The notes beneath the pieces are model-generated. The model worked only from the letters and a program-made list of their open reading frames with translations, was not told the origin of the DNA and made no database searches. A stretch of 64,000 nt of DNA, taken from positions 1,240,001 to 1,304,000 of the forward strand of contig NZ_CP071596.1 of the NCBI RefSeq assembly GCF_017357105.1, read 5' to 3'. Within the stretch, counting starts at the first letter, position 1, and the number at the start of each line of letters is the position of its first letter. This DNA is from Natronosalvus caseinilyticus (GTDB lineage: Archaea > Halobacteriota > Halobacteria > Halobacteriales > Natrialbaceae). The position numbers were made by a program, and so were the translations under genes. Positions 18,562-21,763 of the stretch are shown here, piece after piece.

Positions 18562-18568
18562 TTTAATA
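18562..18568 (+). promoter_or_regulatory. TATA box of the arginine leader ORF
   Basis: TTTAATA, centred 29 bases before the ATG at 18594, is placed for a leaderless transcript that begins at or just before that ATG. Confidence 0.6.
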
Positions 18569-18593: not shown

Positions 18594-18674
18594 ATGAGCG
18601 CACTCGCCACTACCGTCCTCGCTGTCCTCGGTAGCGCGAGCGCCGTCGCCCCGCGACGACGACCGGGCCTCTAG
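18594..18674 (+). CDS. Candidate arginine leader peptide upstream of argG (26 codons)
   Basis: A short ORF from ATG 18594 to TAG 18672-18674 encodes 26 residues: a small hydrophobic Ala/Val/Leu/Ser stretch, then PRRRPGL. The three arginine codons CGA-CGA-CGA are at 18654-18662. Two hairpins overlap them: CGTCGC-CCC-GCGACG (18644-18658), which covers the first arginine codons, and GGGCC-TCTA-GGCCC (18665-18678 with flanks), which contains the stop codon. A T-rich tract lies about 60 bases downstream (18726-18740). The ORF has a well-placed TATA box for leaderless expression. By position and composition it resembles a bacterial attenuation leader for the argG-argH operon. It could also be a chance ORF or an independent small protein; it is not tested here. 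Confidence 0.5.
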   Translation: MSALATTVLAVLGSASAVAPRRRPGL

Positions 18675-18725
18675 GCCCACTACTACTTCATCCCCAGATT
18701 TCGGTATTGCTCAACGCTGCAGGAT

Positions 18726-18740
18726 TTCCTGTTTTTCCTG
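18726..18740 (+). terminator. Pyrimidine/T-rich tract between the arginine leader ORF and argG
   Basis: TTTCCTGTTTTTCCT contains a T5 run and could act as an archaeal U-tract terminator, stopping transcripts that read through from the leader ORF before argG. No strong hairpin directly precedes it. Confidence 0.4.
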
Positions 18741-18784
18741 GTTAGTGTCCACTTCACCACTAAATTACGAAAATAAAACCAACG

Positions 18785-18818
18785 AATTTAAGTCCCGTAG
18801 CCGATTGTACTCGAGTAC
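18785..18818 (+). promoter_or_regulatory. argG promoter with palindromic operator GTACTCGAGTAC
   Basis: A second TATA element, AATTTAAG (18785-18792), is 33 bases before the argG ATG and predicts a start near 18815. The perfect 12-base palindrome GTACTCGAGTAC at 18807-18818 covers that start site, the place where an archaeal repressor would bind. So argG may have its own repressible promoter as well as read-through from the leader ORF. Confidence 0.5.
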
Positions 18819-18821
18819 GAT

Positions 18822-20072
18822 ATGACACGCGTTGCACTCGCGTTCTCGGGCGGACTGGACACGACCATCTGCGTCCCGCTGCTCGAGGAAGAATACGGAT
18901 ACGACGACGTTATCGGCGTCACGGTCGACGTCGGTCAGCCCGCTTCGGAGTTCGCCGAAGCCAAAGAAACCGCCGAGGCCCTCGGCCTCGAGCACTACGT
19001 CGTCGACGCGCGAGCGGAATTCGCCCAGCTCTGTCTCGATGGCGTTCGCGCGAACGCGACCTACCAGGGCTACCCGCTCGGAACCGCGCTCGCTCGCCCC
19101 GTGATCGCCTCGAAAATTCTCGAGGTTGCCGAGGAACACGGCTGTACGGGCATCGCACACGGCTGTACCGGCAAGGGGAACGACCAGCTCCGGTTCGAGG
19201 CCGTCTGGCGCGACTCGGACCTCGAGGTCATCGCTCCCATCCGCGAACTGGGACTCACGCGCACGTGGGAACAGGAGTACGCCGCGGAGAAGGGCCTGCC
19301 CGTCGAGGGCGGCAACGAGGGCGACTGGTCGATCGACACCAACCTCTGGAGTCGCTCGGTCGAGGGCGACGAGCTCGAGGACCCCGGCTACGTCCCACCG
19401 GAGGACATCTACGAGTGGACCCAGGAACCCACCGGCGAAACTGAACTGATCGAGATCGCGTTCGAGGAGGGCTATCCCGTCGCCGTCGACGGCGAGGAGA
19501 TGGACCCCGTCACCCTCATCGAGCACCTCAACGAGGTCGCCGGCGCCCACGGCGTCGGTCGCACGGACGTGATGGAAGACCGCATGCTCGGGCTCAAGGT
19601 CAGGGAAAACTACGAGCACCCCGCGGCGACGACGTTGCTGAACGCCCACGAGTCGCTCGAGGGCCTCGTCCTGACCCAGGAGGAGCGTCAGTTCAAACAG
19701 CACGTCGACCAGCAATGGGCCCAGAAGGGCTACGAGGGACTGGTCGACGCCCCGCTCGTAAGCGCGCTCGAGGGCTTCATCGCCGAGACCCAGAAGCGCG
19801 TCACGGGCACGGTGACGATCAAGTTCGAGGGCGGACAGGCCCGCCCCGTCGCCCGCGACAGCGAGTACGCGGCGTACTCGGCGGCCCACGCCTCCTTCGA
19901 CACCGAGACCGTCGGCAAGATCGATCAGGAGGACGCCACGGGTGTCGCGAAGTACCACGGCTTCCAGCGCCGCCTGGCGAACAAGTCGCTCGAAGGCGAG
20001 GGTGAGAGCCTCGAGATGGCGACCGACGGCGGCGCCGACACCGACACCGACACTGAGACGACCGACGAGTGA
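18822..20072 (+). CDS. argG: Argininosuccinate synthase
   Basis: Joins citrulline and aspartate with ATP to form argininosuccinate, the penultimate step of arginine synthesis. The 416-residue protein carries the N-type ATP pyrophosphatase loop SGGLDTT (residues 9-15), then GVTVDVGQP, HGCTGKGNDQLRFE and the substrate-binding stretch EGGNEGDWSIDTNLWSRS. It is slightly longer than usual because of an acidic tail (GGADTDTDTETTDE) characteristic of halophiles. Its stop is three bases from the argH ATG, so argG-argH form an operon whose upstream region has a candidate leader peptide and operator. Confidence 0.97.
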   Translation: MTRVALAFSGGLDTTICVPLLEEEYGYDDVIGVTVDVGQPASEFAEAKETAEALGLEHYVVDARAEFAQLCLDGVRANATYQGYPLGTALARPVIASKILEVAEEHGCTGIAHGCTGKGNDQLRFEAVWRDSDLEVIAPIRELGLTRTWEQEYAAEKGLPVEGGNEGDWSIDTNLWSRSVEGDELEDPGYVPPEDIYEWTQEPTGETELIEIAFEEGYPVAVDGEEMDPVTLIEHLNEVAGAHGVGRTDVMEDRMLGLKVRENYEHPAATTLLNAHESLEGLVLTQEERQFKQHVDQQWAQKGYEGLVDAPLVSALEGFIAETQKRVTGTVTIKFEGGQARPVARDSEYAAYSAAHASFDTETVGKIDQEDATGVAKYHGFQRRLANKSLEGEGESLEMATDGGADTDTDTETTDE

Positions 20073-20074
20073 AC

Positions 20075-21580
20075 ATGACCAGAGAGGATTCCCTGCAGGG
20101 CGACGCCGACGCACCCCGCTCGAGTTCGACCGACGAGAGCGACGCGGGCAGCGTCGTCCGCCGTGACCGCTTCAGCGGCGGCCCCGCGCGCGGGTTCCTC
20201 TCGTCGCTGACGGCCGACGAGCGCATCTTCGAGGCGGACCTCGCGGTCGACCGCGCCCACGTCGTAATGCTCGCCGAGTGCGGGATCGTCGAGGACGACA
20301 CCGCGGGCGAGATCCTGCGCGCGCTCGACGCCATCGAGGTAGACGGGCACGCGAACCTCCCCGACGGCGAGGACGTCCACGAGGCCATCGAGACGGCCGT
20401 CATCGACGAGGTCGGAGTCGACGGCGGGAAGATGCACACCGCCCGCAGCCGCAACGACGAGGTCGCGGCGTGCATCCGGTACCGCCTCCGCGAGGACGTC
20501 CTCGAGGCACTCGAGGCGACGCTCGAGCTGCGCGAGGCCCTCTCGGCGGTCGCGAGCGAGCACGTCGAGACGACGATGCCCGGCTACACCCACCTCCAGC
20601 CCGCCCAGCCGACGACCGTCGCCCACTGGGCGCTGTCTTACGAGGGGGCGATTCGTCGCGACACTGAGCGCCTGCTCGAGGCCTACGCGCGGATCAACGT
20701 CTCGCCGCTGGGCGGGGCCGCGTTCGCGGGGACAACCTTCGATATCGATCGCGAACGGACGGCCGAGTTGCTCGGGTTCGACGGGGTCGTGGAAAACTCG
20801 ATGGACGCGTCATCGAGCCGGGACTTCCTGCTCGAGACCGTCCAGGCGCTGTCGACGCTGTCGACGACGCTGTCGGGGCTGGCCGAGGACGTGATCCTCT
20901 TCGCCAACCGCGGCTTCGTCGACCTCTCGGACGACTACTCCTCGACGTCGTCGATCATGCCCCAGAAGAAGAACCCCGACACGCTCGAACTCGTCCGCGC
21001 GGTCGCGGGCGATGCAGCCGCCGGGGTGCAGGGCCTGACGACGATGCTCAAGGGACTGCCCCGTGCGTACAACCGCGACCTCCAGCGGGCGACCCCGCAC
21101 GCGTGGTCGACGGTCGACGCCGTGCTCGAGGCGACCCGAGTCGCTGCGGGCGCAGTCGCCACCGCCGAGTGGAACGAGGACGCCCTCGCCGCGGAGGCGG
21201 GGGCTGGCTTCTCGACGGCGACCGGCGTCGCGGACCTGCTCGCGGCGAACGGGTTGCCGTTCCGGACGGCCCACGAAATCGTGGCCGTCGCCGCCGAGAA
21301 CGGGGCCGACTACGCGGCCATCGAGGACGCCGCCGAGGACGTGCTGGGCGAACCGCTCGAATCCTACGCCGATTCCGGCGCGGTCGAGGCGGCGCTCGAC
21401 CCTGCGACGAGCGTGGCCAGTCGCGACTCGACGGGCGGGCCAGCACTCGGAGCCGCCGAGAGCCAGATAGACGCGGCGACGGCGGTGCTCGAGGCCGACC
21501 GGGAGACCGTCGAAGGTCTCGAGGCGGACCTCGAGGCGGCCCGCGACGCGCTCCGCTCCGAGGTGATGACGTATGTGTGA
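20075..21580 (+). CDS. argH: Argininosuccinate lyase
   Basis: Cleaves argininosuccinate to arginine and fumarate, the final step. The 501-residue product has the fumarase/aspartase superfamily regions: TARSRNDEV-like TARSRNDEVA in HTARSRNDEVA, the TMPGYTHLQPAQPTT stretch with the general-base histidine, and the signature SSIMPQKKNPD. The first 30 residues are an acidic, low-complexity addition. I prefer the ATG at 20075; the GTG at 20069 overlaps the argG stop and would add two residues. It is followed by a hairpin-rich gap and a separate promoter for lysW, so transcription probably divides here. Confidence 0.96.
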   Translation: MTREDSLQGDADAPRSSSTDESDAGSVVRRDRFSGGPARGFLSSLTADERIFEADLAVDRAHVVMLAECGIVEDDTAGEILRALDAIEVDGHANLPDGEDVHEAIETAVIDEVGVDGGKMHTARSRNDEVAACIRYRLREDVLEALEATLELREALSAVASEHVETTMPGYTHLQPAQPTTVAHWALSYEGAIRRDTERLLEAYARINVSPLGGAAFAGTTFDIDRERTAELLGFDGVVENSMDASSSRDFLLETVQALSTLSTTLSGLAEDVILFANRGFVDLSDDYSSTSSIMPQKKNPDTLELVRAVAGDAAAGVQGLTTMLKGLPRAYNRDLQRATPHAWSTVDAVLEATRVAAGAVATAEWNEDALAAEAGAGFSTATGVADLLAANGLPFRTAHEIVAVAAENGADYAAIEDAAEDVLGEPLESYADSGAVEAALDPATSVASRDSTGGPALGAAESQIDAATAVLEADRETVEGLEADLEAARDALRSEVMTYV

Positions 21581-21600
21581 ACGGAACGTCCGCGAGCGGA

Positions 21601-21650
21601 GGCGGCTAGTGAAGCCGCCGCGATCACCGCCGCCGTCCCCGCCCGGGGAC
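21601..21650 (+). terminator. Two hairpins after argH
   Basis: GGCGGCT-AGTGA-AGCCGCC (21601-21619) and GTCCCC-GCCC-GGGGAC (21635-21650) are two perfect stem-loops directly after the argH stop, followed by the A/T-rich AATATACAATTT. They could end the argGH message or stabilise its 3' end. There is no long T run, so termination is not certain. Confidence 0.45.
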
Positions 21651-21757
21651 AATATACAATTTCGATGATATTCGAAACAAGAATTGTGGAAAAGTAGGCT
21701 TTTGACACCGTTAGAGCGGACTATAGGTTGTATAATTTTTCTGGTAGTTTCGAAGGG

Positions 21758-21763
21758 TTTAAG
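21758..21763 (+). promoter_or_regulatory. TATA box of the lysW operon
   Basis: TTTAAG is centred about 30 bases before the lysW ATG at 21791 and predicts a very short leader. GAGGGGAG just before the ATG could also serve as a ribosome-binding site. A second A/T-rich element, TGTATAAT, lies at 21729-21736. Confidence 0.5.

Follow-up and report, generated by a model that had tools for sequence, protein, structure and literature searches.

The short, arginine-rich reading frame that stands immediately in front of argG in this haloarchaeal genome raises the question of whether an archaeon can read the supply of an amino acid through the ribosome and, if so, by which means that signal would reach the genes behind it. 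The standard textbook example of how bacteria exploit the coupling of transcription and translation is amino-acid attenuation. Papers on coupling, in the portions consulted, present attenuation with reference to bacteria and mention none in archaea; it is brought up as a bacterial process in the consulted part of PMC8576121, and the text of PMC8116511 contains no word beginning with “attenuat”. The literature search, within such partial texts, found no archaeal leader-peptide attenuator, and an earlier notice in H. volcanii small-protein or ribosome-profiling work is possible. If the leader works as inferred, archaea would use the same logic as bacteria with other parts, and would do so in genetically tractable organisms. 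From comparative sequence evidence, we consider it very probable that the argG leader is translated and serves as a control leader that senses an amino acid.

The window, by which is meant the whole 64-kb stretch of DNA that was analysed, contains the following elements at and around the leader.

18562–18567, + strand: TATA box TTTAAT (P1), 32 nt 5' of the ATG, the putative promoter of the leader transcript
18594–18674, + strand: leaderless leader ORF, ATG to TAG, 26 codons, with CGA CGA CGA as codons 21–23
18603–18640, + strand: the conserved 5' hairpin (H1), seen in the fold of the window, with arms that covary in relatives
18654–18662, + strand: arginine run of three CGA codons, read from the sequence
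18665–18678, + strand: GC hairpin GGGCC-TCTA-GGCCC (H2), with the stop codon TAG (18672–18674) inside
18679–18697, + strand: G-free tail rich in C, U and A, about 19 nt, directly 3' of H2
18720–18737, + strand: small hairpin CAGGA/TCCTG followed by TTTTTC (18732–18737), a possible terminator in this genus, not conserved
18740–18758, no strand assigned: dyad GGTTAGTGTCCACTTCACC before P2, a putative operator; the AG of its left half is invariant in 61/61 Natrialbaceae
18787–18792, + strand: TATA box TTTAAG (P2), directly 5' of argG
18822–20072, + strand: argG, the presumed controlled gene

An earlier note on this DNA had described the 26-codon leaderless frame with its TATA box and three CGA codons, the hairpin that holds the stop codon and a separate promoter for argG, and all three are present in the window as listed. 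The frame translates into a peptide of 26 amino acids, MSALATTVLAVLGSASAVAPRRRPGL. Its first half is spanned by H1, in which CTCGC (18603–18607) pairs with GCGAG (18636–18640) and CTACCG (18610–18615) with CGGTAG (18629–18634). The note had missed this conserved hairpin and placed the upstream one at 18644–18658; the latter exists, but the pairing of that region with the arginine run does not covary in relatives. The T-tract reported before argG is likewise real, as TTTTTC, but is not a conserved feature among relatives. No Rfam family matches the leader at the gathering score, the sole such match in the window being a tRNA elsewhere.

Conservation was assessed at 140 argG loci (L003–L142), drawn from 61 whole genomes, a genome collection and 30 separate upstream regions, with some genomes represented twice. 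The leader occurs at 134 of these haloarchaeal loci; two leaders (L104 and L128) start with GTG, and L118 was recognised by reading. It is absent at the other six, namely a second argG copy (L134) and five loci (L137–L141) from families f2, f9 and f11. Removal of duplicates left 123 leaders for analysis, of which 61 are from Natrialbaceae, 24 are of the Halorubrum type and 38 are others, and in most relatives a TATA box stands 30–33 nt 5' of the leader start. The ATG, the arginine codons and the stop hairpin are thereby kept at argG in relatives, the conservation that the note had set as a test, and its proposal of an amino-acid leader frame ahead of argG is further borne out by an independent case with matched codons before ilvB, which is described below. 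Even at an AT-rich locus (L226), five consecutive arginine codons are kept before H2. The leaders of Halorubrum-type loci (e.g. L088, L094 and L109) are longer and arginine-rich throughout. Extra argG copies are found in some genomes, such as G026 (L134, at G026:C59) and G074, with three argG matches; the extra copy of G026 has no leader in front.

A covariance model of the arginine run, H2 and the tail (R1) was built from 38 sequences and searched against 61 genomes, the majority of them sources of sequences in the collection. Matches at E 0.05 or better were obtained in 44 of them, the best match lying upstream of argG in all 44, and the six other matches were all at E 0.002 or worse. A match at E 0.01 or better was present in 73 of 117 genomes of the order, and 54 of these 73 were outside the first set. 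The best match was upstream of argG in 50 of these 54, coordinates being compared by reading, and just behind argH in the other four (G062, G090, G135 and G106); G106 has an additional match before argG, and G139 an extra match elsewhere. The argG upstream regions of these four genomes and of ten genomes without an R1 match were read, and all 14 carry the leader, the H2 variant GGGGTC/GACCCC being frequent among them. The misses of R1 are thus explained by a model built without the Halorubrum form.

The stretch that follows H2 is distinctive in composition. In the 61 Natrialbaceae, the columns behind H2 hold 1.9% G over 1096 aligned bases, with 47% C and 30% T; the H2 finder penalises G in the tail, so that tail counts taken from it are biased and the description of the tail as G-free is based on the alignment. 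Runs of four or more T occur between H2 and P2 in 34/61 Natrialbaceae and downstream of H2 in 5/27 leaders that lack P2, and across these two sets no intrinsic terminator U-tract is conserved. A T-stretch termination motif has been described, and termination by a hairpin demonstrated, in H. volcanii (PMC7237163, consulted in part); the TTTTTC of the window fits the T-stretch motif.

Promoters of argG itself were sought by a weight matrix made from the leader TATA boxes, and by reading. Most leaders from Natrialbaceae and Halorubrum, and 11 of the 38 others, have an argG-proximal TATA box. In the remaining 27 of the 38 no argG-proximal promoter is recognisable while P1 is kept, so that transcription of argG would be expected to pass through the leader there; the distance from H2 to argG in these 27 is 80–221 nt. 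It is this arrangement above all that argues for assigning the leader to argG. The family of the window has its own argG promoter, and the leader may therefore matter little there. The dyad at 18740–18758 is probably a transcription-factor operator, which would constitute a second layer of control. Similar dyads of the GTTAG type are seen at 18740–18758, before P2, and at 21710–21726, before the argW promoter, and may be a common operator for an arginine regulator.

The structure of the leader RNA was examined mainly through its hairpins. For H1, the duplex energy of each leader's own arms was compared with that of permuted arms: own arms gave −23.2 versus −19.7 (sd 0.41) in the Natrialbaceae and −24.2 versus −19.7 (sd 0.55) in the others, values reached by 0/20000 permutations in both groups. 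Pair counts in a fixed alignment were 70.8% of cells paired versus 66.2% when shuffled (0/500), a signal diluted by register shifts. RNAalifold reported almost no structure for the alignment of 61 sequences, because H1 shifts register between clades, so H1 was tested by arm-swap permutation instead. H2 is 93.6% paired, and it has pairing-keeping double changes in 5 cells, a count reached by 0/500 shuffles. When all pairs of seven leader segments were scanned for covariation in three groups, only H1 stood out clearly (z −8.8, −6.6 and −2.9); a weaker signal links the tail with the stretch before argG in 27 leaders (z −3.4), and no alternative partner was found for the arginine run, H2 or the arms of H1. 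Single-sequence predictions for Halorubrum give a larger, branched fold, closed by a long predicted stem between the arginine-rich part and the stretch downstream of H2, which varies so little that it offers no test by covariation.

These features suggest a mechanism in which the ribosome itself would be the sensor. Transcription from P1 would start at or near the ATG of the leader, and a ribosome would load directly on the leaderless start. With ample charged Arg-tRNA, the ribosome would reach the stop codon and leave, H2 would close and the tail would be left bare, which would allow RNA polymerase to be terminated before argG, most likely by FttA/aCPSF1, a termination factor of archaea, and, in this genus, with the help of TTTTTC. 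With scarce Arg-tRNA, the ribosome would stall on the CGA run and cover H2 together with the start of the tail, and transcription would continue into argG-argH. H1 may act as a gate for initiation or keep polymerase and ribosome in step, and P2, where present, would add basal and transcription-factor control. That the leader is translated, that ribosomes stall on CGA when Arg-tRNA is low and that transcription responds are all inferred from the arrangement of these parts. Occupancy by the ribosome fits better than a switch between folds, given that the stop codon adjoins the tail and that no conserved alternative fold was found. A reported preference of FttA for U-rich RNA (PMC11616081, consulted in part) counts against the model, as the C-rich tail fits it poorly. 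In the same source, protection of archaeal RNA polymerase from FttA by the ribosome is put forward as a hypothesis, for which the argG leader, if the model is true, would be a natural assay. Taken as a whole, including factor-dependent termination, the model of an amino-acid-sensing leader controlling argG seems to us slightly better than an even prospect.

The same stalling on the arginine run could instead alter the stability or processing of the RNA, or re-initiation at argG, and so control translation or the fate of the mRNA with no premature termination. Neither a U-tract nor an alternative fold is conserved, as such control would have it, and argG is apparently read from the leader transcript in 27 of the 38 leaders, at the distances from H2 given above. 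Where P2 is present, however, argG would have its own short transcript, on which a leader transcript could have no effect in cis, and the leader is still kept. This reading is unlikely in our estimation, though it deserves to be taken seriously.

Factor-dependent termination under ribosome occupancy must also be set against the classical scheme, as in bacterial trp, his and ilv, which was the model of the earlier note: stalling would determine whether an antiterminator fold or the hairpin of an intrinsic terminator forms. The frame with its cognate codons and hairpins is what such an attenuator would contain, the small hairpin with TTTTTC lies downstream in this genus, and the long closing stem of the Halorubrum folds, in which the arginine-rich part pairs with the downstream stretch, could be seen in the same light. 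Yet H1 is the only pairing to covary clearly over the seven segments and three groups, the Halorubrum stem is too invariant to help, and U-tracts are not conserved. The switching of alternative folds by a stalled ribosome was therefore not borne out, given that neither the arginine run nor the stop hairpin has an alternative partner and that no U-tract is universal, and we regard the classical scheme as improbable.

Evidence that the frame is coding comes from the codons themselves. The arginine density of a single leader was rejected as evidence when taken alone, since GC-rich DNA makes other frames arginine-rich too: another frame with at least three arginines in eight codons is present in 110/124 leaders, and shuffled spans match the observed density in 12.9% of trials. 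CGA makes up 564 of the 953 arginine codons (59%) in 124 leaders versus 18 of 173 (10%) in seven neighbouring ORFs, where CGC is dominant. The codon at position −4 from the stop is arginine in 82 of 91 leaders (CGA in 63, CGG in 19), and over codons −4 to −9 the entropy is always lowest at the first codon position and highest at the third, the one exception being −5, at which the second slightly exceeds the third. The stop codon lies inside H2 in 91 of the 99 leaders that are not of the Halorubrum type (49 TAG, 42 TGA). Among the eight in which it lies outside (L020, L031, L036, L039, L041, L075, L091 and L124), the first five keep both the arginine run and the hairpin; the eight exceptions are a point against the model.

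A control with a different pathway was provided by scanning the ilvB loci. A leaderless leader precedes ilvB in 31 of 33 loci (L230–L243 and L356–L374), of which 20 were found by a detector, with two G allowed in the tail, and 11 by reading; the two without it (L356 and L357) belong to families f11 and f9, both of which also lack the argG leader. Many of these leaders end in Leu-Ile-Ile-Val-Gly-Ala-Ala, and their stop codon lies inside an AGGGGC-CGCCTA-GCCCCT hairpin that is followed by a G-poor, C-rich tail. The last nine codons of the 20 detected ilvB leaders hold on average 4.25 Ile, Leu or Val and 0.2 Arg, whereas the nine codons up to H2 in the argG leaders hold 0.65 and 4.5, respectively. 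The genome of the window has an ilvB leader of its own (L238), at about C1:1744731-1744811.

Both leader types also bear on the idea that the frame encodes a functional arginine-rich microprotein in place of a control leader. The frame is conserved, and its peptide has a recurring C-terminal RRPG(L/R) with a periodicity of three nucleotides, as a protein would; but this motif overlaps the arginine run and H2, and the N-terminal half of the peptide follows the pairing of H1. Its fixed position before argG, in one copy per genome, further opposes a microprotein, as does the ilvB leader, where the same architecture comes with another peptide, matched to that pathway; we deem a microprotein very unlikely. 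Less credible still is a riboswitch for some metabolite, or a structured RNA of another kind, with the frame as a by-product of GC-rich helices, for although two strong hairpins and the larger branched Halorubrum fold are there, the leaderless start, the codon periodicity, the run of rare arginine codons and its retention in the five leaders whose stop has left H2, the matching of amino acids at ilvB and the lack of an Rfam match here all speak against it.

The four R1 matches behind argH led to an examination of the argH-argW junction, which in the window contains the following.

21573–21668, + strand: second leader-like ORF (31 codons); it begins in overlap with the stop codon of argH (21578–21580)
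21635–21650, + strand: hairpin GTCCCC-GCCC-GGGGAC, followed by a G-poor stretch
21758–21763, + strand: TATA box TTTAAG before argW (start 21791), read from the sequence

A frame starts at this fixed place, overlapping the argH stop, in 73 of 83 argH-argW junctions, and the module was noted among the junctions of L033–L112 and L210–L213. The junction frames have on average 20% arginine, with CGA as 230 of 493 arginine codons, and 68 of the 83 junctions have a hairpin followed by a G-poor tail (6.7% G), the usual hairpin type being TCCCC..GGGGA; the TATA box and then argW follow. The module appears, on these sequence features, to be related to the argG leader. Some junction frames (e.g. L049, L051, L064 and L066) have three arginines in about 30 codons and are rich in proline, which makes arginine sensing less certain at this junction.

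The rarity of the architecture was gauged with the detector, which combines a TATA box, a leaderless ORF, a stop codon inside a GC hairpin and a G-poor tail. It gave one match in the 64-kb window, the argG leader, and none in the reversed window; in 1.015 Mb of fetched loci it gave 102 matches, and none in the reverse. The fifteen among the 102 that had neither a clear arginine run nor a repeated peptide were inspected, and they comprise 14 argG or ilvB leaders and one argW coding sequence. Matches at PF00682 loci are the ilvB leaders themselves, since ilvB follows shortly behind the PF00682 gene. Examination of trpC (22 loci), hisG (21) and trpE (16) for a comparable leader found none, which counts against the model, and homoserine dehydrogenase gave no strict detector match in 11 loci. 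Over 60 other stretches of 20 kb of the genome of the window (1.2 Mb of the 4.0-Mb contig C1), there were no strict matches against one in the reversed control, and two relaxed matches against seven; these counts are no better than their controls, and no third system is claimed in this genome.

These findings allow the broader proposal that haloarchaea possess a general, translation-sensing attenuation system, made of a leaderless frame, a stop codon within a GC hairpin, a G-free tail and codons matched to the pathway, namely arginine for argG and, as a related variant coupled to argH, for argW, and leucine, isoleucine and valine for ilvB. It would need no alternative folds, as occupancy by the ribosome would shield the nascent RNA from an archaeal termination factor. 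We judge the chances of this proposal to be evenly balanced.

Ribosome-mediated transcription attenuators of bacteria are exemplified by the trp, his, thr, ilvB and ilvGMEDA leaders. They have been described in general in PMC1183508 (consulted in part). The argG leader resembles them in being a short frame with codons of the pathway, directly before a biosynthetic operon, and with hairpins adjoining those codons. It differs from them in being archaeal and leaderless, in the stop codon inside a hairpin and the G-free tail that follows, and in having neither a conserved antiterminator pairing nor a U-tract. The ilvBNC attenuator of Corynebacterium glutamicum, which has three hairpins (PMC11857589, consulted in part), is comparable to the haloarchaeal ilvB leader as an attenuation-type region before branched-chain amino-acid genes. 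The haloarchaeal region is unlike it in consisting of a stop-codon hairpin and then a G-poor tail. A further parallel is offered by tnaC of E. coli, a Rho-dependent leader in which stalling responds to free tryptophan rather than to a shortage of charged tRNA, and which requires Rho, a factor other than the archaeal one. In both tnaC and the argG leader the stop codon adjoins a C-rich, G-poor stretch that a ribosome could cover, an arrangement for which no alternative fold is needed; unlike tnaC, with its free tryptophan and Rho, the argG leader would, in the proposed model, respond to scarce charged Arg-tRNA, with FttA/aCPSF1 as the candidate factor.
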